This document shows positions 11,500 through 61,906 of a stretch of 64,000 nucleotides of DNA, piece by piece. The stretch is taken from contig NC_019902.2 in the NCBI RefSeq assembly GCF_000321415.2, positions 2,790,001-2,854,000 on the forward strand, read 5' to 3'. The stretch comes from Thioalkalivibrio nitratireducens DSM 14787 (GTDB taxonomy: Bacteria; Pseudomonadota; Gammaproteobacteria; Ectothiorhodospirales; Ectothiorhodospiraceae). The notes beneath the pieces were generated by a model that was given only the letters and a program-made list of their open reading frames with translations, had not been told where the DNA came from and made no database searches. Every line of letters starts with the position of its first letter. Position 1 is the stretch's first letter. A program made the position numbers and the translations under genes.

Positions 11500-12965
11500 G
11501 CCGACTCCCTTGCCTGCGCCTGGCCGACCGGAGCCGCATGCCCGTGGCTGCTGAACAGGCTGTGGGCCGTGTGGTCGGATTCCGGCTGGAACCACTTCAA
11601 GCGGTCGTGCAGCGCGACCACTTCTCCGACGATGATCAGCGTTGGCGGCTGCACGTCTTGCTGCGCGACCAGCTCGGGCAGCGTGTCGAGCGTGCCCACC
11701 AGCACGCGCTGGTTCTGGGTCGTGCCCTGTTCGACCAGCGCCGCCGGCGTCGACCCCGGCCGACCATGTGCCTTGAGTTCGCGGCAGATGATCGGAAGGC
11801 CGAGCAGCCCCATGTAGAACACCACGGTCTGCGCGGGCTGCGCCAACATGTTCCAGTTCAGGTCGATGGTGCCGTCCTTCAGATGCCCGGTTGCGAACAC
11901 GAGCGACTGCGCGTAGTCACGGTGGGTCAGCGGAATCCCTGCAAACGAGGCACAACCCGCGGCCGCGGTGATACCCGGCACCACCTGGAACGGAATGCCT
12001 TCCTGCATCAGCGTATCGATCTCCTCGCCGCCCCGACCGAAGATGAACGGATCGCCGCCTTTCAGACGCAGCACCCGTTTGCCTTCCTTCGCCAGCTTCA
12101 CCAGCAGGCGGTTGATATCCTCCTGCGGCAGCGTATGCTGGTTGCGGCGTTTGCCCGCGTAGATCATTTCGGCATCGCGGCGCACGAGCTCCAGGATCGC
12201 CGGCGACACGAGGTTGTCGTGCACCACGACGTCGGCCAACTGCATCAGGCGCAGCGCCCGGAAGGTCAGCAGATCCGGGTCACCCGGGCCCGCGCCGACC
12301 AGGAACACTTCGCCGCCATCGTCGCGCCGATCGAGTCCTTCGTCTACGGCTTTCTCAAGGATGTCCCGGGCGGCGTCCTCGCGCCCGGAGAGCACCAGCT
12401 CGGTCACCGAACCCTCGAGCTGCCGTTCCCAGAAACGCCGGCGCAGTTCGGTGTCCGGCAGGCGCGCCTTGACCCGGTCGCGGAACCCTTCGACCAGCGC
12501 GGCCAGCCGGCCATAGGTGGCCGGGATGAAACTCTCGATGCGGGAACGCATCAGCCGGGCCAGCACCGGCGAGGCCCCACCGGTCGAGATCGCCACCTGC
12601 AACGGCGAACGGTCGATCATCGACGGCGTGATGAAGGTGCAGAGTTCCGGGCGGTCGACCACGTTCACCGGCACGAACCGTGCCGTCGCCAGCTCCGATA
12701 CGTGCCGGTTGACGGCCTCGTCGCTGGTGGCCGCAATGACCAGCACCCGCCCGTCGATGTCGCCATCCTCGAAGGGTCGCTGCAGGTACTCGATGTCGCC
12801 CGCGGCACGCAATGCGGCCAGTTCCGGACACAGCTCCGGCGCCACCACGGTCACCTGCGCCCCCGCCTTGCGCAGCAGCGTGACCTTGCGCATCGCGACA
12901 TTGCCACCACCGACCACGAGGCAGGGACGGCCGGTCAGCTTCATGAAAAGAGGGTAGTAATCCAT
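11496..12965 (-). CDS. cysG: siroheme synthase
   Basis: A 489-residue trifunctional enzyme making siroheme from uroporphyrinogen III. The N-terminal half is the precorrin-2 dehydrogenase/ferrochelatase module ([24 protein letters not shown] motif at residues 16-22, and [14 protein letters not shown] near 130). The C-terminal half is uroporphyrinogen methyltransferase, with [16 protein letters not shown] near 222 and [14 protein letters not shown] near 305. Length matches the fused family. It is probably needed for sulfite reductase or other sirohaem enzymes in this sulfur oxidizer. It is followed by the S24 gene and preceded, 15 bases upstream, by the glutaredoxin gene on the same strand. Confidence 0.94.
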
Positions 12966-26971: not shown

Positions 26972-26994
26972 GTTTCAGAACGGCACGTGCCGTT
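26972..26994 (+). promoter_or_regulatory. enhancer-like element (GTTTCA plus 16-bp palindrome)
   Basis: GTTTCA at 26972-26977 is followed by the perfect palindrome AACGGCACGTGCCGTT at 26979-26994. The same composite, 19 of 22 positions identical and with the same spacing, occurs at 61511-61532 ahead of the sensor-less sigma-54 activator. It lies about 100-120 bases upstream of a sigma-54 promoter (27092), the usual distance for an activator site. Confidence 0.7.
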
Positions 26995-27091
26995 CCCCGG
27001 ACGGGTTGGCCCGTTCCGTTTCGAATCGGGCCGAACCCGCCGTCCGGATCCTGCCACCCTCGGGATCCCGCGGTGACGGCTTCCTCAAAGC

Positions 27092-27107
27092 TGGCACACG
27101 CATTGCT
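27092..27107 (+). promoter_or_regulatory. sigma-54 promoter TGGCAC-N5-TTGCT
   Basis: TGGCAC at 27092-27097 and TTGCT at 27103-27107, with exactly ten bases between GG and GC. This is a near-perfect -24/-12 element about 105 bases before the gene at 27211. Confidence 0.82.
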
Positions 27108-27210: not shown

Positions 27211-27918
27211 ATGCAGCAGAACAAAGCGGTCATTCCCCGGCGCCGGGGCGGCAGGGCAGCGGGGCGCCGGATCCTCGTATGGCTCGTCGGGATCACCATC
27301 GCGCTGATCGCACTGGATTATGGCGCCGGTCATTACCAGCAGGTGCTGATCGAACGTCAGCAGGCCCGGATCGCCTGGCTGAACCGCATGGCCTTCGTGA
27401 TGGTGCGCGCCGACGTTGAAGACATCCGGCTCCGCCCGGACGGCCGCTACGAAGTGACCCTCTGGATGGAAAACGTATCCGACGAGAACGACCTCTACCT
27501 GCTCGTACCCAACGTGAGTGCCTACATCCAAGTCGGTTACCGCTGGCGCGAACTGCCGCTGGAACACATCCCGGGCCCGGATGGGCTGCTGCCGGGGATG
27601 GTAGTCAACCTGCGCGATCACCTGCGCATCACCCAGCAGTACTTGCTCGATGTGCCGCCGGATGCCGAGTACCGCAAGCTCTTTCCAGGCTACCTGCACG
27701 CCCACTTCCGCAGCGAGATGTTCATGAGCCCGGAAGCCGAACCCGACGAGCACCTGATCGCGCGCTCCGACCGCTACACCGTGCACCTGCGCCCGGCCTG
27801 GGCCGACGAACAGGAACCGCTCCGGGTCAACCACTTCCGGCATGGCCCCCCCGACTATTTCCGCTCCGGCGCCGCATACCACTCGATGCGCCAAACCGGT
27901 CACGCGGATCACGAGTAG
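27211..27918 (+). CDS. membrane-anchored protein, paralogue of the TcDH-cluster protein at 52030
   Basis: A 235-residue protein with a basic N-terminus, one membrane helix (ILVWLVGITIALIALDYGAG, residues about 21-40) and a large presumably periplasmic domain. It shares ordered motifs with the product of 52030-52725: LDYGAGHYQ/LDWGVGAYQ, PDGRYEVTLWMEN/PDGRYRVTIWMEN, VPNVSAYIQVGYRW/VPSVRGYLQVGPRW and MSPEAEP/LSPEAEP, ending with VHLRP. It stands alone here, yet it has its own sigma-54 promoter and enhancer element like the TcDH genes. Function unknown; a shared role in thiocyanate or copper metabolism is inference from the paralogue's location and the promoter. Confidence 0.8.
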   Translation: MQQNKAVIPRRRGGRAAGRRILVWLVGITIALIALDYGAGHYQQVLIERQQARIAWLNRMAFVMVRADVEDIRLRPDGRYEVTLWMENVSDENDLYLLVPNVSAYIQVGYRWRELPLEHIPGPDGLLPGMVVNLRDHLRITQQYLLDVPPDAEYRKLFPGYLHAHFRSEMFMSPEAEPDEHLIARSDRYTVHLRPAWADEQEPLRVNHFRHGPPDYFRSGAAYHSMRQTGHADHE

Positions 27919-39726: not shown

Positions 39727-40477
39727 CTAGCCGTCCGCCAGCCGAAAACGGATCGGCACCTCCACCGTCGCCACCACCGGGCGGCCCTCGCGTCGGGCCG
39801 GCTCGAAATGCCAGCGCCGGACGGCATCCTGCGCAGCGGCATCCAGCACCCGGAATCCCGAGCCCGAGTGCACGGTCACCGAGAGCACCCGACCATCGGC
39901 TCCCACCTCGACCTCGAGCAATACCAGCCCTTCCATTCCGCGGCTGCGCGCAGCGGCCGGATACACGGGCTCTGGGTTGTTCAGGTAGGCCGCCTGGCTC
40001 GACGGCGGCACGAACGCCGGAGGTTCGGGCGGCCCGGCATCGGTGTCCTCCGCGGCCGTGCGCCCCGGCGGCTCGGCGTCCCGAACGGGCCTGGGTTCCG
40101 GCCTGAGTTCCGGTTCGGGTTCCGATTCGGGTTCCGGTTTGGGTTCCGGTTTGGGTTCCGGTTTGGGTTCCGGTTTGGGTTCCGGTTTGGGTTCCGGTTT
40201 GGGTTTCCGGCTCGGGTTCCGGCTCGGGTTCCGGCTCGGGTTCCGGCTCGGGTTCCGGCTCGGGTTCCGGCTCGGGCGTCCCGGCCGGGAGCTCCGGTGC
40301 GGGAGCGGCCAGACGAACCATTTCGAACCCGGTCACCACGGCTGGCGGCTGCTCGGGGTCCTCTCCGGACCAGCCGAGCATGGCCACCATTGCGGCATGG
40401 AGCCCGAGCGCAACCGCAAGCGCGGCGGCCTGTCCCACGACGCACGGGACGGAAATCGGTTCAGCAGGGGCCGCCAT
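39727..40477 (-). pseudogene. tonB: TonB, frameshifted in its Pro-rich repeat
   Basis: The N-terminus (membrane helix AAALAVALGLHAAMVAMLGW) and the C-terminal TonB domain (YPAAARSRGMEGLVLLEVEV, then VRRWHFEPARREGRPV, ending at 39727) lie in different frames. The break is one extra T in 40204-40206 inside the GGTTCCGG repeat: removing one T joins PEPEPEP directly to PEPKPEPK and then to the C-terminal domain without stops. In the N-terminal frame translation would instead run on to 39662 as a nonsense TQTG-repeat tail. The gene is broken as given; a real mutation, slippage at the repeat, programmed frameshift or sequencing error are all possible. The start is ATG 40477 (or GTG 40498), overlapping the TlpA-like gene. 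Confidence 0.8.
40092..40286. repeat. tandem 12-bp repeats encoding the TonB Pro-rich spacer
   Basis: Two adjoining tracts of about six units each, GGTTCCGGTTTG and GGTTCCGGCTCG on the plus strand, encode (PEPK)n and (PEPE)n on the minus strand. The unit length is a multiple of three, so copy-number change alone keeps the frame. The extra T at the junction (40204-40206) does not. Confidence 0.85.
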
Positions 40478-44383: not shown

Positions 44384-44571
44384 GAACCTGAATATCCCCT
44401 TGTCTCAATGCCCTGCACTCAGCCGTCCCTGTCGGAATCGGAATTTTCCGGGTGAGATGCCCCAACCGCAGGGGCAGATCACACAGTGGCAGCCGAGCCG
44501 GTGCCGCGCAGTTGCCGAGCCGACCGTCGCGGCGCATCGGCAGGCGCCGTTTCCAGGCGAACCATCCCGTT

Positions 44572-44593
44572 CCAGATCGAACCAGCGTGAAAC
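44572..44593 (-). promoter_or_regulatory. enhancer-like element between receptor and sulfide-dehydrogenase operons
   Basis: On the minus strand the sequence begins GTTTCACGCTGGTTCG at 44593. It shares GTTTCAsGCTGG with the element between TcDH and copC (58412), and the GTTTCA start with the other two elements. It lies about 90 bases from the plus-strand sigma-54 promoter and 190 from the minus-strand one. Confidence 0.45.
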
Positions 44594-44683
44594 ATCCGGG
44601 TTCCTCGCCAGACCACGCCTTCCGGACAGATCTTTTTGTTTTATTTGATGTTTCATGAGTCGCGAGACCTTCCTGGCGTACGC

Positions 44684-44699
44684 TGGCCTGGCCCTTGCT
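44684..44699 (+). promoter_or_regulatory. sigma-54 promoter of the sulfide-dehydrogenase operon
   Basis: TGGCCTGGCCCTTGCT: GG at 44685-44686 and GC at 44697-44698, ten bases between. The -12 block TTGCT is exact; the -24 block has two changes. Confidence 0.6.
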
Positions 44700-44774
44700 G
44701 CTGTTCCCGGCGGGAACCGAACGCGAGCCACATCGCTGGCTCCCCCGTCCACGACCGAACCAGGAGGAAGAACG

Positions 44775-46952: not shown

Positions 46953-48338
46953 TCAGGACGAGGCCGGATCCCGCCCGATGTTGTACTGGCGCATCTTGCG
47001 CCAGAGCGTTGTCCGGCCGATGCCGAGCGACTTGGCCGCAGCGGTCAGGTTCCATCGGCAGCGCACGATGCTTTCCTCGATGATCTGACGCTCGTGACGC
47101 GCCAGGCTGCCATCTGCCGGCGCTGCCTCCTCGTGCACCGCTGCCGGTGCGGACGCGGTGCGCGCAGGCCGCTGGAGGGTCTCGGGAATGTCGGCGACGG
47201 TGATCCGGCGCCCCCGGCAGACTGCCGCCGCCCATTCCAGCGCATTCTCCAGTTCGCGCACGTTGCCCGGGTACTCGGCATTGCACAGCGCCGACATGGC
47301 CTCGTCATCCACCGTGAACCCATCGCAGCCGTCACCGGCCGGCAGGCGCTCCAGGATGCGCCGCACCAGCACCGGGATATCTTCCCTGCGCTCACGCAGC
47401 GGCGGCACCTGAAGCCGCGCGACATTCAGCCGGTAAAACAGATCCTCGCGGAACTCCTCGCGTGCGACCGCTTCTTCCAGATCCGCGTTGGTGGCCGCGA
47501 TCACGCGCACGTCCACCGCCTGGGTGGTGTTACTACCCACGCGCCGGACCTCGCGATCCTGCAACGCACCCAGCAGCTTCGCCTGCATGTTCGCGGGCAG
47601 TGTGCCGATCTCGTCCAGGAACAGCGTGCCGTTGTGGGCCTCCTCGAACAGGCCTCGCCGCGCCTGTGTCGCCCCGGTGAAAGCACCTTTCGCGTGGCCG
47701 AACAGTTCGCTTTCCAGCAACGGCTCGGGAAGCGCCGCGCAGTTCACGGACACGAATTGCCCGTCGGACCGTTGGCTGTGATGGTGGATGGCCCGGGCGA
47801 TGCAGCTCTTTCCGGTCCCGGTCTCGCCGGTAATCAGGATCGTCAGGTGTGTCGGCGCGACCTTGTGGATCCTTGCCAGCACCTCGCGCATCGCAGGGCT
47901 CTTCGCGACCAGCGCACCCAGCCCGATGCCGCCGCTGACCTCGGTCCGGAGCTGCGCCACCTCGCTGCGCAGCGAGCGCCCGTCGAGCGCCTTGCGCACC
48001 TTCAGCAGGATCTCGTCGTTCCTCGCCGGCTTGGTGATGTAGTCCGTTGCACCGAGCTTCATCGCCTCGACCGCGGTGTCGATACTCCCGTACGCGGTCA
48101 TCACGAGAACCTCCGTCTCGGGCACCCGCCGCTTGATCTCGCGCACCACGTCCAGACCCGACATACCCTCCATGCGCAGATCCGTCAGCACGAGGTCGGC
48201 GGGCTGTTCGTCGAATCGCGCGACCGCCTCCTCGCCGCTCTGCGCGAGGCTCACGTCGAAACCCTCCTTCGAGAGCAGGAACTCCAATGTGCGCCGAAGA
48301 CCCCGCTCATCGTCCACGATCAGTACCCTTGCCGTCAT
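46953..48338 (-). CDS. NtrC-family sigma-54-dependent response regulator
   Basis: A 461-residue regulator: receiver domain with phosphoacceptor D53 (LVLTDLRMEGMSGLDVV), AAA+ domain with Walker A GETGTGKS at 171-178 and the sigma-54 contact loop GAFTGA at 218-223, and a Fis-type helix-turn-helix at the C-terminus (LTAAAKSLGIGRTTLWRKM). Its start overlaps the stop of the kinase gene (ATGA), so the two are cognate. With eight sigma-54-like promoters in the window, this is the first candidate activator of the TcDH regulon. Confidence 0.93.
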   Translation of the reverse strand: MTARVLIVDDERGLRRTLEFLLSKEGFDVSLAQSGEEAVARFDEQPADLVLTDLRMEGMSGLDVVREIKRRVPETEVLVMTAYGSIDTAVEAMKLGATDYITKPARNDEILLKVRKALDGRSLRSEVAQLRTEVSGGIGLGALVAKSPAMREVLARIHKVAPTHLTILITGETGTGKSCIARAIHHHSQRSDGQFVSVNCAALPEPLLESELFGHAKGAFTGATQARRGLFEEAHNGTLFLDEIGTLPANMQAKLLGALQDREVRRVGSNTTQAVDVRVIAATNADLEEAVAREEFREDLFYRLNVARLQVPPLRERREDIPVLVRRILERLPAGDGCDGFTVDDEAMSALCNAEYPGNVRELENALEWAAAVCRGRRITVADIPETLQRPARTASAPAAVHEEAAPADGSLARHERQIIEESIVRCRWNLTAAAKSLGIGRTTLWRKMRQYNIGRDPASS

Positions 48339-51300
48339 CGCTCCACTCCGTTCGGTGTTTCGGGGCCGCCGGTCAATGGCAGGCAGACTGCCACCCGTGT
48401 CCCCTTTCCGGGTTCACTCTCCAGTTCCACGGTTCCGCCCCAGTTCGAAACGATCCGGCGCACGATCACCAGCCCCAGCCCCACGCCGTCCGGCTTGGTC
48501 GTCTGGAACGGCTCGAAAATCCGGTCGCGCATCTCCGAGGCGACTCCCGGACCCGAGTCCGACACCTCCAACCACAACCGGTCCGCTTCCGGACGCACCC
48601 GCAGGGCCACCGGCCCTTGACCATCGGTCGCAGCCGCAGCATTGTCTAGCAAGTTGGCGAGGACCTGCTGGACCTCGGCCGCCTCCCCGTTCAGAACCGG
48701 CAGGTCGTCAGGAATCTCCTTGTGCACGACCAGCTCCGGAAAGCGCACCAACGCGATCCTCGCGATCTGGTCGATCAGCGGGCCCAACTCGAAATGTTGT
48801 TCGCGGACACGCGCCGGACGCGCGTAGTCGAGGGTGTCGGACACCAGGTGGTTCAGGCGGTTGACTTCCGCCTCCATCAATTCCAGCAGTTCCCGCTGCT
48901 CTGCGCCGTCCATGCGCTCGGACTGCAACAGCCCCAGCGCACTGGTGATCGCACCCAGCGGGTTGCGAATCTCGTGCGACAGCGATGCCGCCATCTCGCC
49001 CAGCGACGCCAGACGCTCCGACTCCACCAGGCTTTCCTGGGCATTCTCCAGCGCGATATAGGCCTGCTTCAGATCCTGGATCAGCGCCGCGGTCTCGATC
49101 GCCAGCGCGGCCTGCTGGGCGAACAGCATCGTCTGTTCGACGAAGTCGCGCCCGAGCGTCTCCTGCCTCGGCACGGGCAGGATCATGAAGCCCACCAGCC
49201 GCTCCCGGGCACTGAACGGGGACAGCAGCACCGGCATCGCCTCCAGCCCGGGTTCGAGCCCACCGAGGCCGAGTTCCGCGAGTTGTCCGGCGGCCAGGCA
49301 CAGCGGCACACGGTCGCGCAGCAGCCGCTGGATCGAATCCTCTCCTGCGGCCAGGTTCCGCTGGAAGCGCTGCGGCTGGTGGGTCGACTCGGCCCGTACC
49401 AGGCAACCGTGGAGCCTGCTCGACTCGCGCTCGAACAGACAGAGCAATGCCGGCGAACACTTGAGCAGATTCATCGCCCCGCGGCAGACCACCGCGAGCA
49501 CCGTGTCGAGATCCCGAGCCGCGACCATCGCCAGCATCGTCTCGCTGAGTCCGGTGCGGAACTGCGCCGAACACTGGCTCTCCCGGAACAGGCGCCCATG
49601 ATGAATCGCAAACGCGGCCTGGCCGGCAAGGGCGCGCGCCAACGCCACTTCGTCGCGGCCCAGTCGCTGCGCGGGGCCCAGCAGCAGCGCGACACAGCCG
49701 ATTACCCGCCGTTCGACCAGCAGCGGGATGAAAAGTGCCTCTCCCAGCTCACCGGCGTCGATGCCCGACTGGATCACCGGTTCCGGGAAACGGGGTGCGC
49801 CATCCGACTGCAGCGCAATGTCGACGGTCCGCCGCTCGCTTACGCAGGGGTGCAGCGCGGGATGCGTGGCGATCTGGAACACGGCACCCCGGAGCCCGAG
49901 TTGCCCCTGCGCCGCGTGCTCGGCCGCAACCGTCGCGAGCCTACCGTCCTCCGAGAGCAGATAGGCCAGCGCCCGACGCGCCTCCAGCACCTGGAGCTCG
50001 CGCAGTAGCAAGATCTCCAGGATCCGGTCGAGGTCGATGCTCGAGGTCACCTCTCTGAGGGTTTCGTACATCGCCATCAGGTGCCGGTGCCGCTTCACCA
50101 GTTCCTCGTGCAATCGCGCCCTCTCCAGCGCCACGGCTGCCTGGTTGGCAAACACCTGCAAGCGCACCGAATCCTCGGCCACCGGAAGATAATCTTCGCG
50201 GTAGTCGAAGCGGATGCTGCCCAGCACACGGTCGCGCCCGACCAGCGGATGCATCAGCCGCAGATTCCCTCGACCCGGGTATCCACCGCCGGGCGTGGTG
50301 TCCCCGGCCTCCGGCAGGGCGGACCGGCCGGGGCCTTGGTCCTGCACGATCTCGACACTGACGACACCCGGCAGGCGCCGCGCTGCATTCAGGATCGATT
50401 CCAGCACGGCCCGGGTGTCCAGCGACCGGCTGATGTCCTCGAGAATCGCCGCATGCGCCGCCAGCATCTGGTTGTCGTCACGGATCCGGCGGTTGCTGTG
50501 CTCGACCGACTGCATCGCGCCGAGCAGCCGCTCGTGATAAAACTCGAGTTGCCGGAACCCCTTCACGAACTCTATCGCGAGCATCACGATCAGCACGGCC
50601 ACCACCCCCACGCGGACGCCGTGCCAGATCCACCAGTTCACGTCCCACAGGCTCGAATACGGAAACATGAACTCGCTCTGGGCCAGGAGCAGCACCACCA
50701 CCGCGAACACCAGGAACACCGGCTCGCGCGCGCGCAGGAAATCGGCCAGTAACGCAACCCCGACCACGAGGAACAGCGCACCGGCCACCAGGTTCATCGC
50801 GACGGCCAGCGGCGCGAACTCGCCATCGATCAGCATCGCGGGCACCCGTTCGCTGAACTGCGCGGACACGAACACCACCAGCATCGTGGCCAGAAACACG
50901 CCTGCCAACGGCGCTGCGGACCCTGGCCGGCACCAGCCGAACCTTGCGACCACGAGCGACAGCGCCAGCAGCAGCGCCCCTGAAAGCGCCGATACCGAGT
51001 GGAACCAGACGAACAGCACCGAGCCCGGCGGCGCCGCTGCATGAGCGAGCGCGAACACTCCCATCGCGATGAACGCATATGCCATCACCGCCAGTCGCGC
51101 ATTGCGATAGCGACGAGATTCCTGGAACAGGATGACTGCGACCACGAGGGCCATGAAGCCGTAGAACAGTTCCAGCAGCAGATGGGCACCGATGTTGTGG
51201 TGGTGCACATCCGCGGCAACGGGCAACAGGAAGTGCTGCGCGAGCACCGCGACCGGTGGCAGCAGCACGACCAGCACGGCGATCCCGAGTTGCCCGAACG

Positions 51301-51388
51301 GCACACCCGAGGCGGGTCCGCCCACCGCTTCCGTTCCTGCGCTGATCAACCCGCTCCCGGGCTGCGTCGATACCTGGCCTTGTTCCAA
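48335..51388 (-). CDS. large membrane histidine kinase with three GAF-like domains
   Basis: A 1017-residue sensor. The first 300 residues have about eight membrane helices (a MASE-like sensor region beginning GIAVLVVLLPPVAVLAQ). Three GAF-like domains follow (about 320-440, 460-610, 630-780), then a HisKA domain with phosphoacceptor H805 in ASLSHEIRNPLGAI and a HATPase_c domain (EVQQVLANLLDNAAAA, DSGPGV, GLGLVIV). The start is a TTG at 51388 behind GGGGGGAG; a GTG at 51325 is the alternative. It is coupled to the NtrC-type regulator. The signal is unknown; thiocyanate, copper or redox state are candidates from context. Confidence 0.88.
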   Translation of the reverse strand: MEQGQVSTQPGSGLISAGTEAVGGPASGVPFGQLGIAVLVVLLPPVAVLAQHFLLPVAADVHHHNIGAHLLLELFYGFMALVVAVILFQESRRYRNARLAVMAYAFIAMGVFALAHAAAPPGSVLFVWFHSVSALSGALLLALSLVVARFGWCRPGSAAPLAGVFLATMLVVFVSAQFSERVPAMLIDGEFAPLAVAMNLVAGALFLVVGVALLADFLRAREPVFLVFAVVVLLLAQSEFMFPYSSLWDVNWWIWHGVRVGVVAVLIVMLAIEFVKGFRQLEFYHERLLGAMQSVEHSNRRIRDDNQMLAAHAAILEDISRSLDTRAVLESILNAARRLPGVVSVEIVQDQGPGRSALPEAGDTTPGGGYPGRGNLRLMHPLVGRDRVLGSIRFDYREDYLPVAEDSVRLQVFANQAAVALERARLHEELVKRHRHLMAMYETLREVTSSIDLDRILEILLLRELQVLEARRALAYLLSEDGRLATVAAEHAAQGQLGLRGAVFQIATHPALHPCVSERRTVDIALQSDGAPRFPEPVIQSGIDAGELGEALFIPLLVERRVIGCVALLLGPAQRLGRDEVALARALAGQAAFAIHHGRLFRESQCSAQFRTGLSETMLAMVAARDLDTVLAVVCRGAMNLLKCSPALLCLFERESSRLHGCLVRAESTHQPQRFQRNLAAGEDSIQRLLRDRVPLCLAAGQLAELGLGGLEPGLEAMPVLLSPFSARERLVGFMILPVPRQETLGRDFVEQTMLFAQQAALAIETAALIQDLKQAYIALENAQESLVESERLASLGEMAASLSHEIRNPLGAITSALGLLQSERMDGAEQRELLELMEAEVNRLNHLVSDTLDYARPARVREQHFELGPLIDQIARIALVRFPELVVHKEIPDDLPVLNGEAAEVQQVLANLLDNAAAATDGQGPVALRVRPEADRLWLEVSDSGPGVASEMRDRIFEPFQTTKPDGVGLGLVIVRRIVSNWGGTVELESEPGKGTRVAVCLPLTGGPETPNGVER

Positions 51389-51481: not shown

Positions 51482-52030
51482 TCACCTCGAGTCGGAGACA
51501 ACGCGCACCGGCCGCTGCATACGTTCGAAGCGGTCCGTCGCGTCATCATGGTAACGCAGTTCCAGCGTACCCCAGCCCGTGGGTCCGTCGACCCTGAAGC
51601 CGAACCGTTCCCGAACCGATTCCCCAGGCTCGATCGCGCGCTCGTTCCGGACCGTTGCGCGTGCCCAGGCGCGGTCGAAGCCCAGCGCGTCCAGCGTCAC
51701 CCGCAACTCTGCGTGCTCCGCCGGTACCGGATCCTGCGCGACGAGCGGTCCGAGGTCGCGGATGAACTCGCCATACCCCGTGGGATCCGCGCCCTCCGGA
51801 ACGAGGCGGATCCCGTTGTAGAAGACGTGCACCGCCCGGGGTCCGCGGTTTTCCAATGTCACGGTGACGGCGAGCAGGCCGTCGGTGCTCCCTTCCCCGA
51901 CGAAAACTTCCTCCACCGCGTCCACCTCGAGTTCCAGTGGACCGTCACCCTGCCCGCAACCGACCAGCAGCACGCCGGCCAGCAGCAGTGCCCGCGCCAG
52001 AAGCCGAATGCTGATGCCGACCACGATCAT
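51482..52030 (-). CDS. predicted lipoprotein of the TcDH cluster
   Basis: A 182-residue exported protein with a lipobox (LLVGCGQ, Cys 25). The mature domain appears to be an all-beta, Ig-like fold (LAVTVTLENRGPRAVHVFYNGIRLV is the most structured stretch). It overlaps the membrane-protein gene upstream by one base and is the last small gene before the kinase, on the same strand as TcDH. No family recognised. It may be the periplasmic or outer-membrane partner of the ABC/FtsX modules. Confidence 0.65.
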   Translation of the reverse strand: MIVVGISIRLLARALLLAGVLLVGCGQGDGPLELEVDAVEEVFVGEGSTDGLLAVTVTLENRGPRAVHVFYNGIRLVPEGADPTGYGEFIRDLGPLVAQDPVPAEHAELRVTLDALGFDRAWARATVRNERAIEPGESVRERFGFRVDGPTGWGTLELRYHDDATDRFERMQRPVRVVSDSR

Positions 52031-52725
52031 CAGTGCGGCGGCATCGGGATGAACAGCGGCGCGCCGTCTCCCCCGAACCGATGCCTGCGGGCGAGTGCTT
52101 CGACATCCGCGTCCGGTGGACGGAGGTGGACATAGTACCAGTCCGTGCGCTCGACGATGTCCTCCTGCGGCTCGGCTTCGGGGCTCAGGTACATGGTGTT
52201 GTCGAAACGGATGTGCATGTAGCCTTCGAGCATCTCGTAGTACTCGTCATAGCCGTCCGCCTCCATCAACAGGTCGAGATGGATGCGGTCGGACAGGTTG
52301 ATGACCGAGCCGGGCACCCTGGAATTGCCGTCCTCGGCCGCCACCACCGGTATCTGCTCCCAGCGTGGCCCCACCTGCAGGTAGCCGCGGACCGACGGCA
52401 CCATGAAGTACATGTCGTGTTCCGGGTAGAGGTTCTCCATCCAGATGGTCACGCGATAGCGTCCGTCGGGGTTCATCGTGACCTCGTCGAGATCCGCGCG
52501 CAGATGGCGCCAGGCCATTCGCTGCAGCTCCTCCATGCGCTGCTCGCGCGCCTCGACCAGGCCGGCCTGATACGCGCCGACTCCCCAGTCGAGCAATGTC
52601 AGGGAGCCGGCGACGATCGCGATCCAGAAAAGCAACTTGCCGAGAATCCGCTTCCAACCGTGCCGGCGCTTGCGTACCCGGTTGTGCGGCGGGATCTTGC
52701 CCGCGGTCGTGGTAGCGGCGCTCAT
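52030..52725 (-). CDS. membrane-anchored protein of the TcDH cluster, paralogue of 27211
   Basis: A 231-residue protein with a basic cytoplasmic tail, one membrane helix (LLFWIAIVAGSLTLLDWGVGAYQ, about 32-54) and a periplasmic domain with PDGRYRVTIWMENLYPEHDMYF and LSPEAEPQEDIVERTDWYYVHLRP. The same ordered motifs occur in the gene at 27211-27918. ATG 52725 overlaps the stop of the ABC ATPase gene. The paralogy and shared promoter type define a small family linked to this regulon; function unknown. Confidence 0.8.
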   Translation of the reverse strand: MSAATTTAGKIPPHNRVRKRRHGWKRILGKLLFWIAIVAGSLTLLDWGVGAYQAGLVEAREQRMEELQRMAWRHLRADLDEVTMNPDGRYRVTIWMENLYPEHDMYFMVPSVRGYLQVGPRWEQIPVVAAEDGNSRVPGSVINLSDRIHLDLLMEADGYDEYYEMLEGYMHIRFDNTMYLSPEAEPQEDIVERTDWYYVHLRPPDADVEALARRHRFGGDGAPLFIPMPPH

Positions 52726-53402
52726 CACGCGGCCTCCTCGAGCGGACGCCCGTCGTCGATCCGGATGCAGCGCCGGGTACGGTCACCGATCTCCTGGTCG
52801 TGCGTGACCAGCACGATGGTGTTGCCCATCGAGTTCAGCTCCTCGAACAGATGCACGATGTCCATGCGCGACTTCCGGTCCAGGTTCCCCGTGGGCTCGT
52901 CCGCGAGGATCAGGTCGGGTTCCTTCATCAGCGTCCGGGCAATACTAACCCGTTGCGCCTCGCCGCCGCTGAGCTCGTGCACCATGTGCTCCGCCCGTTT
53001 CCGCAATCCCACGCGTTCGAGGCATTCGAGCGCCGCCGCACGATCACCGCGGCTGCGCGCACTGAACGCGCGCGGCAGCATCACGTTTTCGATGGCGGTC
53101 AGCGACGGCATCAACCGGGCATCCTGGAACACGTAGGCAACCCGCCGGCGGCGCACCTCCAGCAGCTGCCGCTCGGACAGCTGGTCGATGCGCTGGCCGG
53201 CGAGCCAGACCTCCCCGCTGGTCGGGCGGTCGATTCCGCCCATCAGGTTCAACAGCGTCGACTTGCCCGAGCCGCTCGGCCCCATGATCGCGACGTACTC
53301 GTTACGGACGATCTCAAGGTCGACATCCTCGAGCGCGGCTACTCGTTCCTCGCCGGTCTTGTAGCTCTTGGAGACACCCCTCAGTTGTACGATCGGATCC
53401 AC
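52725..53402 (-). CDS. ABC transporter ATPase (LolD/MacB type)
   Basis: A 225-residue ATPase. Walker A is GPSGSGKST (residues about 41-49), the Q-loop is VFQDARLMPSL, the signature LSGGEAQRVSIAR, and Walker B LILADEPTGNLD. These sequences place it with the LolD/MacB family that drives FtsX-like permeases in mechanotransmission rather than classical transport. GTG 53402 follows AGGAGG. It lies 25 bases downstream of an FtsX permease gene, and the pair probably forms one complex. Confidence 0.9.
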   Translation of the reverse strand: MDPIVQLRGVSKSYKTGEERVAALEDVDLEIVRNEYVAIMGPSGSGKSTLLNLMGGIDRPTSGEVWLAGQRIDQLSERQLLEVRRRRVAYVFQDARLMPSLTAIENVMLPRAFSARSRGDRAAALECLERVGLRKRAEHMVHELSGGEAQRVSIARTLMKEPDLILADEPTGNLDRKSRMDIVHLFEELNSMGNTIVLVTHDQEIGDRTRRCIRIDDGRPLEEAA

Positions 53403-53427
53403 GTTGACCTCCTGGATTCTGCTGGTT

Positions 53428-54642
53428 TCAGAGGGCCCGGAAGGCCTCGACAGGACGCGCCTTGCAGGCACGGAAGGCCGGATAAAGCGTCGCGAGCAAA
53501 CTGGCCACCAGCGCCGATCCGACGGCAAGCGCCACGTGTTCCCACTGCCACCGGATCACCACGTCGGGCATCACCACCGGGCCCAGCAGGTGAGCGATGC
53601 CCGCGCCGAGCAGGTAACCGAGCAGGCCGCCCACCACGCCGATCAGCGCCGCCTCGTACATGAACAACCGAACCAGCTGTGCGTGCGACGCGCCAAGCAC
53701 CTTCAGCAGGCCGACCTCGCGGATACGCGCATGCAGCGAACCCATGATCATGTTGAATACCGCCATGCAGGCGATCACGAACGCCATGACCACGAACCCC
53801 ACCACGGTGGCGAACACGTTACTGAAGATCGCCGCCTGGGCTGCGGCGACGTCGCGCTGCGAGGTGGCACGCACCCCGACCACACCCTGGTTGATCGCGA
53901 GCTCCGCTTCACCGACCGGACAGTAGTTGCACATCGCGCGCACGTTGATCAGCGAAACCTGTCCTTCCCGGTTGAACGCCCGCTGCACCGTCGGCAAGGT
54001 GCCGAAGGCCATGTAGTCGTCGGGCGAGTTGGTTTCCTGCAGAATCCCCGCTACCCGGAACGTCTGCCCCGCAATCTCGACTTCATCGCCGGCCTGGGTC
54101 CGGGTCGCCGACGCGAGGATCTTGCCCAGCATGATCTCGTCGTCGCGCCGCAGCAGATCGCCGACATCGACTTCCCACCAGAACTTCGCAATGTACTCGT
54201 TGCGCGGCTCGATCCCGGCAAACACGATGTCCCGTCCCTCCAACTGCGTCTCGGCATAGACCCGGGGCGCGAACGTCGGCGGGTCGACCTGTTCCTGATC
54301 GCCCATGAAGCCCTCGATCAGGATCAGTGCGTCGCGCGCACGCCAGCCCTCGATGATCGCCTGGTCGTAGACTTCCCGAATGTGCGGAATCGCATCCTCC
54401 GGGATGTAGTGCTCGCCGCCGATACCGAATCCCTGCAGGCTGGTTTCATTCGTGGTCGCAGGAAGAATCGTGAGCTGGTGGCCGTAGCGGTTGATGGTCT
54501 GGCTCAATTCCTGGTATCCGCCGCCACCCACGGTGATGGTCGCGATCAGCAACGCGACCGCGAGGGCGATGCCCGAAGCCGTGTAGAGCGTCCGCATTTT
54601 CCGGCGGCTCACCTCGCGCAGTGCGATCTGGATGATGTTCAT
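53428..54642 (-). CDS. FtsX/MacB-like permease with periplasmic CNYC motif
   Basis: A 404-residue four-helix permease: helix 1 near 20-42 (TASGIALAVALLIATITVGGG), a periplasmic domain of about 210 residues, then helices near 270-300, 320-345 and 370-395, ending in ATLYPAFRACKARPVEAFRAL, typical of MacB/FtsX permeases. The periplasmic domain holds a cysteine pair, CNYC (C238, C241), which may form a disulfide or bind copper or sulfur. The stop lies 25 bases before the ATPase gene start, and its own start overlaps the stop of the other ATPase. Confidence 0.87.
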   Translation of the reverse strand: MNIIQIALREVSRRKMRTLYTASGIALAVALLIATITVGGGGYQELSQTINRYGHQLTILPATTNETSLQGFGIGGEHYIPEDAIPHIREVYDQAIIEGWRARDALILIEGFMGDQEQVDPPTFAPRVYAETQLEGRDIVFAGIEPRNEYIAKFWWEVDVGDLLRRDDEIMLGKILASATRTQAGDEVEIAGQTFRVAGILQETNSPDDYMAFGTLPTVQRAFNREGQVSLINVRAMCNYCPVGEAELAINQGVVGVRATSQRDVAAAQAAIFSNVFATVVGFVVMAFVIACMAVFNMIMGSLHARIREVGLLKVLGASHAQLVRLFMYEAALIGVVGGLLGYLLGAGIAHLLGPVVMPDVVIRWQWEHVALAVGSALVASLLATLYPAFRACKARPVEAFRAL

Positions 54643-55310
54643 AGGAGTCTCCCATCTTTCATTTTCAGCACACGATCGGCCCGCTCGGCGAGCGCGTTGT
54701 TGTGCGTGACCATCAGCAGTGCGGTGCCATCCTGGTTCAGCGTCTGCAGCAGCAGGTCCATGACTTCGGCCTCGGTCTGCTCGTCGAGGTCGCCGGTCGG
54801 TTCGTCGGCGAACAGCAGCTTCGGCCGGTTGATCAGCGAACGGGCGATTGCGACGCGCCGCTGCTGCCCGCCTGACAACTCGCTGGGGTAGCAGTGGATC
54901 TTCTCCGTCAGCCCGACGGTGTCGAGCAACGCCTCGGCCTGGGAATAGACGTCAGCCGAGACGCGTTCCCGCCCGAACATTCGCGGCAGAACCACGTTGT
55001 CGAGCGCGGTCAGGGTCGGGATCAGGCTCGAAAACTGGAACACGAACCCGATCCGTTCGTTGCGCATCAGCGACCGGCGCGAATCCCGCTGCCCCCACAG
55101 CGATTCATTCTCGAAATAGACCGTTCCCGAGGTGGGCCGCGTGAGCCCTCCGAGCATGCTCAGCAGGGTCGACTTCCCGCTGCCGGAGTGCCCGATCACC
55201 GCGACGAACTCACCCGGCACGATATCAACCGAGACGGTGTGGACCGCGTGGATGCGCTGGTCCCCGATCACATAGGACTTCGACAGTTCTTCGCCACGCA
55301 ACAACATCAT
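54639..55310 (-). CDS. ABC transporter ATPase (LolD/MacB type), second copy
   Basis: A 223-residue ATPase with Walker A GHSGSGKST (about 37-45), the signature LSGGQQRRVAIARS and Walker B LLFADEPTGDLD. It is closely related to the ATPase at 52725-53402 and overlaps FtsX-like genes on both sides by four bases, so two ATPase-permease pairs are arranged in tandem. They may work as two complexes or one heteromeric unit. Confidence 0.9.
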   Translation of the reverse strand: MMLLRGEELSKSYVIGDQRIHAVHTVSVDIVPGEFVAVIGHSGSGKSTLLSMLGGLTRPTSGTVYFENESLWGQRDSRRSLMRNERIGFVFQFSSLIPTLTALDNVVLPRMFGRERVSADVYSQAEALLDTVGLTEKIHCYPSELSGGQQRRVAIARSLINRPKLLFADEPTGDLDEQTEAEVMDLLLQTLNQDGTALLMVTHNNALAERADRVLKMKDGRLL

Positions 55311-56509
55311 TCACCTGCCCGAATCGCGTCGTAGGGTTCAAGTCGTGCGCCCGAGACCGCCGGGTAGCTCGCGCCCAGCGTCGCCACCAGCAGCGCCATC
55401 GCGACCGCCGCACCGCCCATCAGCGCGATGTTCTCGACCGGCGGCCAGAGGAACGGGATGTTCAGCAGCTCGAGGTGGAACACGATCGTGCGGCTGAACA
55501 TTCGCAGCAGAACCAGCCCGAGCGCGACCCCGGCCAGCCCGCCCGCGGCCCCGAGCATCGCCGACTCGGTGAGCACCAGGTTGAACACCCGGCCCTTGCG
55601 CGCGCCGATCGCCCGCAGCAGACCGAGCTCGCGCCGGCGTTCGTTGATGATGGTGGAGAAAATCGCGCTGATCATCAGGACATTGCCTACGATCAGCACG
55701 CCTGTGAGCAGCGCGGTGCCGGCGAACAGCGCGACCACGTTCTGGCGCACGCCGGTCACCACGTTGCCGGCGGTGACCACGGAGATGTTCGGGTTCTGCG
55801 CCAGCGCGAAACGCACGTGGTCCGCATTCGCCCCGCCCTCGAGCCGAACCAGCACCGCGGAGATGTCGCCCCGCCCGAAGCCGAGTTCGACGTCGTCGTA
55901 GTCGCGCGACGCATCGGCCAACGCGTAGGCGTCGGCAAGATCCAGGAAGATCGCGTTGTCGGACAGGCCGATGCCGGTCCGGTCGAGCTTTCCGTACACC
56001 GTGAAGTAGCGCCCGTAGTAATAGACACTCTCACCCAGCTCGAACTGGCTGGCACCGCCGACGACCACGTCCCCGGGCTGCATCTCGCGGTTCAGACGTT
56101 CGTTGACCCAGGGCATCACGGTGAAGTCGCTCTCCCGGTCGAAACCGACCAGGAACGCATCACCGACGATGCAGTGCTCGGCATCGGCCGTGGTGAGAAA
56201 GAGTTGCGAGGCCACGGTGTTCACGCCCTGCAGCGCGCTCACCTCCTCGGCCAGATCCGCCTGCATGTAGAAGGTCGACGGCTCGCCGGTGAGCAGCGCG
56301 CGCTCCATGCCGACCATGGTGCCTCGCGGCACGACCATCAGGTCGGCCCCGAGCTTCGAGAATCCGTGATCCACGCTCCGCTCGATGCCGTGCATCAGCG
56401 TCGCGGTGGCAAACACCGCTGCGGTCGCGATCCCGACCGCGAGCACGAGTGCGGCCGTACGAAACGGCTTGCGAAAAAGGTTGTGTGCTGCCAGCGTAAA
56501 GAGATTCAT
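55307..56509 (-). CDS. FtsX/MacB-like permease, second copy
   Basis: A 400-residue permease: N-terminal helix (TAALVLAVGIATAAVFATATL), a periplasmic domain of about 220 residues, three C-terminal helices and the family ending LGASYPAVSGARLEPYDAIRAGE. It is the first gene after TcDH on the same strand, separated by a strong hairpin (56533-56554). Substrates of such modules include lipoproteins and exported peptides; in nitrous oxide reductase clusters an ABC module supports copper-site maturation, which offers an analogy but no proof. Confidence 0.87.
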   Translation of the reverse strand: MNLFTLAAHNLFRKPFRTAALVLAVGIATAAVFATATLMHGIERSVDHGFSKLGADLMVVPRGTMVGMERALLTGEPSTFYMQADLAEEVSALQGVNTVASQLFLTTADAEHCIVGDAFLVGFDRESDFTVMPWVNERLNREMQPGDVVVGGASQFELGESVYYYGRYFTVYGKLDRTGIGLSDNAIFLDLADAYALADASRDYDDVELGFGRGDISAVLVRLEGGANADHVRFALAQNPNISVVTAGNVVTGVRQNVVALFAGTALLTGVLIVGNVLMISAIFSTIINERRRELGLLRAIGARKGRVFNLVLTESAMLGAAGGLAGVALGLVLLRMFSRTIVFHLELLNIPFLWPPVENIALMGGAAVAMALLVATLGASYPAVSGARLEPYDAIRAGE

Positions 56510-56570: not shown

Positions 56571-58217
56571 TCAGGTCGTGGTGGAACGGCTGATGCGCAG
56601 GTCCTCCAGCGTGCGGGGCACGATCACATTGTCGTGATGACCCATCGGGCTGGGCAGGAAGCCAAGGACCTCGTCGGTCTCGGTTTCCATGATCACGATC
56701 GCGGACGCCGTGTTCTGGTAACCGGAGAGCGTGCCGACGACGAACTTCCCGTCGTAGGTCATCGCCAGCGTATGCATGTCGGGGCCGAGATCGACCTCCT
56801 TCAGCACCTGCCAGTTTTCCGCGTCGATGACCGCGATCCCGTTCGGGGTCGGCGACGGCCACCACATCGTGACGTAAATCTTCTTGGAGTCCGGCGTGAA
56901 CACCATGTGGAAGGTGTTCGGGTAGGCGCCGCGCCAGTCGGGGCTCTCGACGACGGCCTTCTTTTCCCATTTGCTGGGATCTTCGAAGTTGGAGCTGTCC
57001 CAGACCATGATATTGTTCTGGCGCAGGCTGTTCATGAACAGGAAGCTCTTACCGTCGGGCGAGAAGCCCGCCTGGTGACCGGCACTGATCACCTCGGGGA
57101 TCTCCACGGTCCAGGTGTCGTCGTCGACCTTGACCAGCGGGAACTGCGAAGGGGTGCCCTTCGGCCCGGCGAGGACCGCCACCGGCATCTGGTTCTCGCG
57201 GTCGAAGACGACGCAGACACCGGTCAGCCGCATGGAAGCGACCGCCCACTTGCCGCGCGGGTCGAACACCAGCGCATCGTTTGCGCAGGCATTGAGCGTA
57301 CGCTCACCGGAGACCTTGCCGTCCTCGATCGCGAGCTCACCACCCGGCACCAGTTCCCAGTCGATCTTGTTGCCCTTCGATCCCTGCAGGTCGTAACGAC
57401 CGTCGGCCAGCGTCGGCTTCAGGCGCTTGATGGTCATCACACCACCATCGAGCCAGGCGCGCTTCAAATCCTTGACGTTGGCGTCCCAGTCGAAGAACCA
57501 GGCGTACCGGACCTTGTCGGTCTCGCGGTCGAACTCGGCGCAGATGTCCTTCTGGCCGTCGCCTACCGCATAGCCGTCGGCTTCGGGGGTGATCGTCACG
57601 TGCACACCCAGCCCCAGACCGCTGACCTCGGCGGCATCGCGCTGCATGTTCATGCGCGTGCCGTCGTACTTGATGCGGTAGATCTTCATGCCCTCGCCCG
57701 GGTCTTCCACCGTGGCCGGCACACCGTAGATGAACAGGTTCTTGCCGCCCTGGGTATTCACCACGAACTCGAACTCCTTGTAGGGGTCCGGGGACGGGAA
57801 GGCCGCCATGTGGTGCATGATCGGGCAGGTGTCGCCGTAGTTCCACGCGGCCAGCCAGGCCATCGTCCAGCCGGTGCTGAGGTCGGTCGCAGCGACCGTG
57901 CCGGAGAACTTGCCCGGGGCCACCAGCACGTACTTGCCGAGCTGGTCGTAGAAGTCCTGGATCTTGACGTACTTGCTGCCGCTGCGGCCGAACAGCTGGG
58001 CCTGGGCGTCCTGGGTCACCAGGCCGCGGACGCTCTCGGGCATGAACGGGGCGGCGGCGGTGGCGGCGAACGCGGCGCCAGTACCGATGCCGACGGTCTT
58101 CAGGAACTTGCGCCGGGACTCCGATGCGCCCGTGTCCTCCACGCTACCCTCGGTGGCCTCCGCGGCGATGTTCGGCTCGGACAGATCCTTGCCGTCGGTA
58201 TGGTCGGAATTGTTCAT
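56571..58217 (-). CDS. tcDH: thiocyanate dehydrogenase
   Basis: A 548-residue periplasmic enzyme that oxidises thiocyanate to cyanate, sulfur and two electrons at a trinuclear copper centre; distant relative of nitrous oxide reductase. With ATG 58217 as residue 1, every active-site residue I know from the Thioalkalivibrio paradoxus structure is present at its number: K103, H135, H206, E288, D314, H381, H437, H482 and H528. The N-terminus holds a Tat motif (SRRKFLKTVG, residues 34-43) before a long signal to about 75, and a beta-propeller fills the rest. GGAGGAG eight bases upstream fixes the start over the in-frame TTG at 58232. It reads from a sigma-54 promoter divergent to copC. Confidence 0.97.
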   Translation of the reverse strand: MNNSDHTDGKDLSEPNIAAEATEGSVEDTGASESRRKFLKTVGIGTGAAFAATAAAPFMPESVRGLVTQDAQAQLFGRSGSKYVKIQDFYDQLGKYVLVAPGKFSGTVAATDLSTGWTMAWLAAWNYGDTCPIMHHMAAFPSPDPYKEFEFVVNTQGGKNLFIYGVPATVEDPGEGMKIYRIKYDGTRMNMQRDAAEVSGLGLGVHVTITPEADGYAVGDGQKDICAEFDRETDKVRYAWFFDWDANVKDLKRAWLDGGVMTIKRLKPTLADGRYDLQGSKGNKIDWELVPGGELAIEDGKVSGERTLNACANDALVFDPRGKWAVASMRLTGVCVVFDRENQMPVAVLAGPKGTPSQFPLVKVDDDTWTVEIPEVISAGHQAGFSPDGKSFLFMNSLRQNNIMVWDSSNFEDPSKWEKKAVVESPDWRGAYPNTFHMVFTPDSKKIYVTMWWPSPTPNGIAVIDAENWQVLKEVDLGPDMHTLAMTYDGKFVVGTLSGYQNTASAIVIMETETDEVLGFLPSPMGHHDNVIVPRTLEDLRISRSTTT

Positions 58218-58326: not shown

Positions 58327-58342
58327 AGCGAGATCCGTGCCA
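58327..58342 (-). promoter_or_regulatory. sigma-54 promoter of TcDH
   Basis: On the minus strand: TGGCACGGATCTCGCT, GG at 58341-58340 and GC at 58329-58328, ten bases between; the -24 block TGGCACG is perfect. Transcription should start near 58316, leaving a leader of about 100 bases. Confidence 0.8.
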
Positions 58343-58390
58343 GCACAGCTGCGGCGCGTCGTGGGGCGGAATTTCCGGAGCCAGCCGACA

Positions 58391-58412
58391 TCGGCGCGTT
58401 CCAGCCTGAAAC
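58391..58412 (-). promoter_or_regulatory. shared enhancer-like element between TcDH and copC
   Basis: Read on the minus strand from 58412: GTTTCAGGCTGGAACGCGCC. It matches the element at 26972 at 16 of 22 positions and the one at 61511 at 15 of 22. It lies 50-70 bases upstream of the TcDH -24 box and about 100 upstream of the copC one. A second GTTTCA (minus strand) is at 58440-58435. Overlapping it, GAAACAG-C-CTGTTCC (58408-58422) forms a further near-dyad. Confidence 0.55.
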
Positions 58413-61510: not shown

Positions 61511-61532
61511 GTTTCACAACGGAACGTTCCGT
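61511..61532 (+). promoter_or_regulatory. enhancer-like element (GTTTCA plus 14-bp palindrome)
   Basis: GTTTCA at 61511-61516 followed by the perfect palindrome ACGGAACGTTCCGT at 61519-61532. It matches the element at 26972-26994 in sequence and spacing, about 70-90 bases upstream of a sigma-54 promoter. Confidence 0.7.
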
Positions 61533-61599
61533 CCCGCGCCTGGAACGCTTTCGCCGCCATGCGGCTGCGGGAATCGGCCCTGGACCGCGCGCCCGCGTC

Positions 61600-61615
61600 C
61601 GGCACGTCGCTTGCA
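61600..61615 (+). promoter_or_regulatory. sigma-54 promoter of the sensor-less activator
   Basis: CGGCACGTCGCTTGCA: GG at 61601-61602 and GC at 61613-61614, ten bases between. The leader to ATG 61907 would be about 280 bases; nothing else was recognised in 61486-61906. Confidence 0.78.
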
Positions 61616-61906
61616 TGACCTCTGGCCGAGCGGCCCGCCGCGGCAGACCCTGCCAGCAGACGCCCGGTGTACATCTCTCATACGCCGGTGTGCCTCGGGA
61701 CAGGGTCACCGCGGTGCCCCGGGTCGGCAGCGGCCCGAGCCAGTGCCCGTTGTCCCGGGTCGTGGCAGCGGGTCCGGGGCTCTGCTCACCCTGTTGCCCC
61801 GAGTGCCTGCGATCGCACGATGCGCCGCGCAGGACCGGAAACGTGCGCCGCGGCGGTGCTGTACCGCATGACGCGGCCCTGTACGAGGACCGAAATGGAG
61901 AATTCC

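Follow-up and report, generated by a model that had tools for sequence, protein, structure and literature searches.

The gene at 27211-27918 (plus strand) in a window of 64,000 nucleotides, the whole stretch of Thioalkalivibrio nitratireducens DSM 14787 DNA that we analysed, is a diverged and probably co-regulated paralogue of a protein encoded in the thiocyanate dehydrogenase (TcDH) cluster of the same window. Its operons and a gene fusion suggest that the family to which the two proteins belong most likely supplies the single-span periplasmic subunit of an FtsX-type ABC machine linked to TcDH.

A lone paralogue of a TcDH-cluster protein

The lone gene encodes 235 aa, with a basic N-terminus, one predicted membrane helix, a beta-sandwich-like domain and a His-containing tail. 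Its counterpart in the TcDH cluster (52030-52728, minus strand) has 232 aa and ends in MPPH. BLASTP aligned the two proteins with 81 of 200 residues identical (41%), 63% positives and an E value of 9e-53, and all five ordered motifs that a sequence-only reading of the window had listed as shared were found in both; since identity and motifs agree, true paralogy is certain. The reading frame of the lone gene is intact, GGAG precedes its start at 27211 as a good ribosome site, and its G+C resembles that of its surroundings. The isolation among housekeeping genes, also claimed earlier, is real: the flanks are a UPF0047 gene and an elongation-factor-G-like gene, which we take, from reading its sequence, to be that of elongation factor G. 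Neither an FtsX-type permease nor an ABC ATPase lies beside the lone copy, whereas the other five family members adjoin both.

Among the 47 genomes of the order, the lone copy occurs in one, and the window genome alone has two copies of the family; it was not found in the other two TcDH-bearing genomes examined for the order. This makes the lone gene dispensable rather than a required member of a pathway. In G013, the genome of a related species, the gap between the UPF0047 and elongation-factor-G genes is about 180 nt long and holds no family gene. That empty gap keeps a sigma-54-like site, GTGGCACGCGGCTTGCG (L021:1357-1373), perhaps the relic of a lost copy.

The TcDH cluster and the distribution of the family

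All cluster genes considered here lie on the minus strand. TcDH (56571-58217) carries 13 of the 13 active-site residues in the list that PMC6504805 gives in its available text. It is accompanied by permease 1 (55307-56509) and ABC ATPase 1 (54639-55310), by permease 2 (53428-54642) and ABC ATPase 2 (52725-53405, putative start codon), by the cluster paralogue and by a lipoprotein-like protein of 182 aa (51482-52030). A membrane sensor histidine kinase with MASE3, GAF, HisKA and HATPase domains (48335-51388) and a sigma-54 activator with a receiver domain (46953-48338), our proposed dyad binder, complete the set. The cluster thus carries, in Thioalkalivibrio, two permease/ATPase pairs, and both permeases of the window match the Pfam FtsX and MacB_PCD models. 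Much of this is already described in the available passages of PMC5328954, PMC5744179, PMC6504805, PMC9456337, PMC6382920 and PMC6934394, namely the TcDH operon and how it is induced, the sigma-54 regulator, and the one helix that the cluster protein has. For Tv. thiocyanoxidans, the text available of PMC5744179 gives the cluster protein one N-terminal helix and an increase of log2 5.07 on thiocyanate (its Table 1), and it reports permease 2 in Thioploca ingrica as well.

Family and TcDH were found in the same 3 of the 47 genomes of the order, in a set with one genome per species; further TcDH-bearing strains named in passages of PMC5328954 lie outside it. A class-wide profile search over 369 genomes returned the window genome as the only carrier, plus one spurious match. 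TcDH was present in 6 of these 369, and the five distant gammaproteobacterial TcDH genomes have no family member; nor did their TcDH loci, in the stretches read, contain any match to the ABC genes. TcDH can therefore exist without the ABC machine.

A phylum-wide search (398 genomes) returned one strong relative, in G581 (E 1.8e-39), and four weak matches that were rejected, and a plasmid search returned a relative in Methylocella tundrae (E 8e-16, two records of the species). Rescored with a six-member profile, the weak matches G388/L010, G763/L105 and G561/L106 gave E values of 0.25, 8e-5 and 0.0013, and G495/L104 and G726/L107 disappeared. On inspection we rejected L105, a 48-aa open frame with 38 residues matched, and L106, where 40 residues matched within a frame of 1041. 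A tblastn search at E 1e-3, with TcDH, the Methylocella TcDH-like protein, permeases 1 and 2, ATPase 1, the activator and the cluster paralogue as queries, gave no match in L104, L107, L010 or the longer stretches at the G763 and G561 matches (L110, L111).

The two accepted relatives both lie in operons. On the Methylocella plasmid the order is a 614-aa TcDH-like protein, an FtsX-type permease, an ABC ATPase and the family protein; in G581, a TcDH-like protein and a permease are followed by a single open frame whose N-terminal part is an ABC ATPase and whose C-terminal part is the family protein, a fusion known from this one genome. Permease 1 of the window matches the Methylocella and G581 permeases at 40% and 32%, and ATPase 1 their ATPases at 50% and 50%; permease 2 has no match to these permeases, and ATPase 2 matches less well than ATPase 1, which is also the nearer of the two to the ATPase fused to the family domain. 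Of the 13 active-site residues in the available list of PMC6504805, each of the TcDH-like proteins has retained 12, with Q in place of H482 in both. Because of this change we say that the family follows TcDH-like enzymes rather than proven thiocyanate oxidation. These proteins (L108:10854-12698, L109:12347-14029) are possibly related copper enzymes with another substrate.

The co-occurrence that the earlier reading had offered as a check was found in all five genomes with the family, each of which has a TcDH or TcDH-like gene, in a sample of genomes and with one narrow scan. That scan, over a broad set of contigs with two narrow peptide patterns, found only Tv. thiocyanoxidans and missed relatives of the Methylocella and G581 types, so our count probably understates the extent of the family.

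Sequence, fold and divergence of the family proteins

Neither the lone nor the cluster protein matched a Pfam or NCBIfam model above the curated cut-off, the cluster protein having one sub-threshold Pfam match, to ribosomal L34 (E 0.14). The proposal of an undescribed single-helix family thus stands as regards known models, but the helix of the cluster member had been reported before (PMC5744179, passage on that protein). A profile built from six members matches those same six. Twenty-six positions, including H163 and M170, are invariant in all of them, and ten more are invariant in the other five members and changed in the lone copy. Three of these ten are Met, one of them within the C-terminal MPPH, which the other five members share and which is replaced in the lone copy; we therefore treat the lone protein as a divergent paralogue and not by default as a functional equivalent. 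It retains the core (H163, M170 and QVGxxW) and, since this core is kept while three shared Met are lost, a role as a variant or auxiliary subunit is more probable than one as a mere spare. In a tree of the six members, its branch is long (2.07 changes per column) and joins the Thioalkalivibrio cluster copies weakly (76/81). Duplication within the Thioalkalivibrio lineage is likely, not proven.

A structure model from a four-sequence alignment (pLDDT 66, pTM 0.55) has a helix at 14-64 and strands from 65 to 193; the other four models reached pLDDT 36-51. Comparison of this weak model with Ig-like, LEA2-like and adaptin-ear folds gave a best Z of 8.5, equalled by many unrelated sandwiches, and a best Foldseek E of 4.3e-4. 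Comparisons with the PDB returned generic beta sandwiches only, and a PDB sequence search with the family protein gave nothing credible. The Met to Leu changes are conservative and the model is weak, so that a copper site would be conjectural, which counts against the copper-centre reading given below. Kinship with the neighbouring 182-aa protein was considered and dropped (hhalign probability 0.5%; the 182-aa model, at pLDDT 44, was unusable). Since the N-terminus is basic and, in G581, joined to an ATPase that is cytoplasmic, we infer a cytoplasmic N-terminus and a periplasmic domain.

The sigma-54 site of the lone gene

Upstream of the lone gene, on the right strand, lies the sigma-54-type site CTGGCACACGCATTGCT (27091-27107, plus), the only exact TGGCACN5TTGCW of the window. 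It is one of four in the 4.0 Mb genome, where the reversed pattern, used as a control, also occurs four times. Simulation gives 1.7 exact patterns per Mb on both strands, and about 2e-4 would be expected on the right strand of the 255-nt gap. When agreement with 13 consensus positions is counted instead, the TcDH site (58343, minus) reaches 13, and the lone-gene site reaches 12, level with five others. The lone gene therefore has the best sigma-54 promoter of the window, as had been claimed, by exact pattern but not by consensus count. The TcDH site, CTGGCACGGATCTCGCT (58327-58343, minus), aligns in three genomes, with changes in one.

Dyad elements in the window

The TcDH upstream regions of three Thioalkalivibrio genomes conserve both a sigma-54 site and the element GGAACARGCTGTTTCAGGSYGGAACG, and a core dyad, GTTTCANNNNGGAAC, precedes TcDH in all three; in the window the exact copy is GTTTCAGGCTGGAAC (58398-58412, minus), the proposed activator dyad. 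In front of the lone gene we found GTTTCAGAACGGCAC (26972-26986, plus), with one mismatch to the core and 120 nt ahead of the sigma-54 site, which in this promoter reads TGGCACACGCATTGCT. A second, weaker dyad with two mismatches, GATTCGAAACGGAAC (27013-27027, minus), follows, and the first is overlapped by GAACGGCACGTGCCGTTC (26978-26995), a perfect 18-bp palindrome. The palindrome is the longest perfect one of the window and has no other place in the genome within one mismatch. Another element, GGAACANNCTGTTTC, was rejected as an enhancer; it is exact only at TcDH, in the three genomes, and the two one-mismatch places examined fall inside open frames.

Half-sites of the form GTTYC/GRAAC, often 10 bp apart, cluster upstream of TcDH, in the gap that separates fccA from a TonB-type receptor gene, before a second activator gene and upstream of the lone gene. 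Four more, grouped at 37219, and a repeat at 40095 lie, as far as checked, outside such gene contexts, and the GTTCC run at 40095-40264 was discarded as a site cluster, being a 12-bp tandem repeat in a coding-like stretch for a low-complexity protein. The array in the receptor/fccA gap spans 44549-44604 with a spacing of about 10 bp. Sigma-54-like sites on both strands lie near this gap (44418-44774), at 44683 (plus) and 44384 (minus), and suggest one enhancer serving two divergent promoters. Ahead of the second activator gene is the exact dyad GTTTCACAACGGAAC (61511-61525, plus), 88 nt before a sigma-54-like site at 61599. The second sigma-54 activator (61754-62863; dyad and site region 61511-61615) gave no match to receiver-domain models; in G013 (L019:17066) the dyad survives with one mismatch. 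This activator may regulate the thiocyanate genes as part of a cascade.

We ranked these elements with a matrix trained on ten sites picked by the dyad pattern in other genomes, the window genome and G013 being left out. The lone-gene cluster came second in the window, after the fccA/TonB-receptor gap, and the best single site scored 22.5 at TcDH versus 12.8 at the lone gene. The best enhancer element, likewise attributed to the lone gene, is thus the best only as the longest perfect palindrome; the matrix puts its cluster second and its single site far below that of TcDH. Equally good dyad clusters occurred somewhere in 2-3 of 40 simulated windows. Dyads with at most one mismatch number 64 on both strands of the 4.0 Mb genome, and about 0.002 would be expected in the 136 nt upstream. 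Given the mismatch and the simulated windows, the regulatory case of the lone gene rests on position and combination.

The dyad beyond the window and its activator

The 15-mer dyad was first noticed in the window and two related genomes and was then tested elsewhere. Its exact form has eight copies in three whole genomes, and TcDH clusters contain five of these. When up to one mismatch was allowed there were 148 places, of which 29 were examined as loci; a sigma-54-like site follows the dyad at 30-250 nt in four of the five within TcDH clusters versus one of the 24 outside (L068). Conversely, among 16 exact sigma-54 patterns in three genomes, only that of the lone gene has a dyad with no or one mismatch 30-300 nt upstream. 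In a second case a one-mismatch dyad is just 21 nt from the pattern, and at the fcc promoter of Tv. thiocyanoxidans (G039) an exact dyad lies 435 nt from an exact sigma-54 pattern. A sulfite-oxidase-like gene also has an exact dyad right where it starts, but no sigma-54 site (G000:C1:422791, L064).

The five distant TcDH loci contained four exact dyads, against a simulated mean of at most 0.02 per locus. Four of the five carry the same kinase and activator, the activators being 43-55% identical by segment, and the recognition-helix region GIGRTTLWRK is common to the window activator and the four distant ones. A dyad with no or one mismatch stands 30-300 nt before a sigma-54-like site directed at TcDH in three of the five loci, with several hundred nt between that site and TcDH. 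At a further locus, L102, the dyad is exact but such a site is absent. The stretch read of L101 has neither kinase nor activator; it contains no exact dyad, and a one-mismatch dyad at 262 is far from TcDH. Beyond the distant TcDH gene of L098 there is, at 11592-11903, a second exact dyad with a sigma-54-like site, and behind them comes a short TcDH-like fragment.

Because exact dyads occur in distant loci with the activator and the recognition-helix region is shared, we assign the dyad to the TcDH-linked activator and infer that this protein binds it. With its sigma-54 site and enhancer dyad, the lone gene is probably in the TcDH regulon. What had been proposed as an unlinked member of the pathway is therefore upheld as a probable member of the regulon, but not as a required member of the pathway, given that the lone copy is absent from the two other TcDH genomes examined for the order. 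The dyad is a concrete candidate binding site of the TcDH activator, from which a thiocyanate regulon can be predicted, in distant bacteria too.

Discussion

We think it reasonably probable that one branch of the TcDH family has an ABC machine of the FtsX/MacB type, with a small membrane-anchored periplasmic protein as its third subunit, and that the product of the lone gene is a stand-alone, diverged paralogue of this subunit. In the mechanism that we propose, the N-terminus of this subunit would sit beside the ATPase in the cytoplasm, one helix would cross the membrane, and the beta-sandwich-like domain would act in the periplasm. ATP hydrolysis would drive, through the FtsX-type permease, a periplasmic job on the TcDH-like enzyme, most plausibly the assembly or repair of the TcDH copper centre, much as NosDFY serves N2O reductase. 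On thiocyanate, the cluster kinase and activator would switch on TcDH, the ABC machine, fccAB and the lone copy together, the last as a co-expressed variant subunit.

Copper-centre maturation is the function that we favour, unproven as it is; we rank export second and sensing third. It comes first because TcDH is a periplasmic copper propeller and the comparable N2O reductase needs the ABC complex NosDFY. TcDH is an unusual trinuclear copper enzyme. Available passages of PMC5328954 and PMC5744179 guessed the ABC genes of the cluster to be copper importers, and PMC6504805, in the text available, argues, contrary to our reading, that TcDH, a Tat substrate, acquires its cofactor in the cytoplasm before export. 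A bolder version, tentative and a minor possibility in our eyes, is that one branch of TcDH and its relatives depends on the ABC machine to build or repair its copper centre, and that the window species has evolved a second, separately encoded form of the third subunit, without the Met/His features and under the same activator, which tunes or blocks the machine.

The ABC machine might instead be an exporter, for example of polysulfide, of zero-valent sulfur or of some lipid-linked compound that arises from thiocyanate oxidation, with the family protein as an unrelated periplasmic adaptor that acts like MacA. The FtsX and MacB_PCD matches of the permeases, the predicted geometry of one helix and a second domain, and, in Methylocella, an annotated RND periplasmic adaptor gene that follows the family gene at a distance of about 6.7 kb, with several genes between, all suit this idea, as does the elemental sulfur that available passages of PMC9456337 list among TcDH products. 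The family lacks a Pfam match, however, and so does not fit the MacA-type adaptor models, the partners common to the operons are an enzyme and an ABC pair, and no TolC-like gene was recognised on reading the TcDH operon of the window; we hold export to be possible, with a small share of the probability. That the ABC complex and the single-span protein form a sensor signalling envelope or substrate state to the cluster kinase, in the manner of BceAB or FtsEX-type systems, would agree with the kinase and activator genes that directly follow in Thioalkalivibrio. The two modules nevertheless look separable in the stretches read: four of the five distant TcDH loci keep kinase and activator without an ABC match, and Methylocella and G581 keep the ABC and family genes without a match to the cluster kinase, Methylocella showing just a response regulator, some 4.3 kb off, that matches in the receiver domain. 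Since the modules look separable, the ABC module more likely serves the enzyme, and sensing seems quite improbable.

Two further explanations concern the lone gene itself. It may be an acquired or decaying duplicate with no role of its own, its promoter likeness being inherited or accidental, as its presence in 1 of 47 genomes, its long branch of 2.07 changes per column and the ten changed positions, otherwise invariant, would suggest. Against this speak an intact frame, a good ribosome site, an exceptionally good sigma-54 site and a dyad in the 255 nt available to them, 26 positions identical in all six proteins and a G+C like that of the surroundings, and we find this explanation rather unlikely. 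Equally doubtful to us is a different sigma-54 regulon, with the 18-bp palindrome as the site of some other activator. In its perfection the palindrome differs from the TcDH dyad, it recurs nowhere else in the genome within one mismatch, and the related Tv. thiocyanoxidans has 11 putative activators (passages of PMC5744179); yet it overlaps a TcDH-type dyad, after which the second, weaker dyad follows.

A co-regulated variant subunit is thus our preferred reading, and the operons outside the genus, together with the ATPase fusion, tie the family protein to a transporter and to TcDH-like enzymes and so point to a testable candidate assembly machine. The open-licence TcDH literature, in the passages available, mentions neither family members beyond the genus nor the fusion, and neither the dyad nor the lone copy. 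In the open-licence literature we found no report of TcDH with H482Q or of TcDH in Methylocella, and for TcDH with sigma-54 or an enhancer there was no paper with a TcDH term among the matches listed.

Several known systems resemble parts of this arrangement. By operon position, G372_RS0106345 of the Tv. thiocyanoxidans TcDH operon is the orthologue of the cluster paralogue (PMC5744179), and its account there, in the available passages, describes no family, relatives outside the genus, fusion or unlinked copy. The TcDH loci of Thiohalobacter and Guyparkeria likewise combine TcDH with a sigma-54 activator but have Cus genes and a thioredoxin-like gene, and no such ABC machine or family protein is mentioned in the available text of PMC6504805. 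The permeases of our cluster, with their FtsX and MacB_PCD matches, and the membrane-anchored partner recall MacAB, FtsEX and LolCDE. These are mechanotransmitting ABC systems, from which the present one differs in a partner without a match to a known family and, in Thioalkalivibrio, in two permease/ATPase pairs. NosDFY(L) is the assembly machine of N2O reductase. In both cases an ABC permease and an ATPase stand next to a periplasmic multicopper enzyme built as a seven-bladed propeller (for TcDH, available passages of PMC9456337); the differences are that the permeases here match FtsX/MacB models and that the family protein, having no Pfam match, has none for NosD or NosL. If the bolder version given above is true, the FtsX-type ABC machine would be an independent counterpart of NosDFY.
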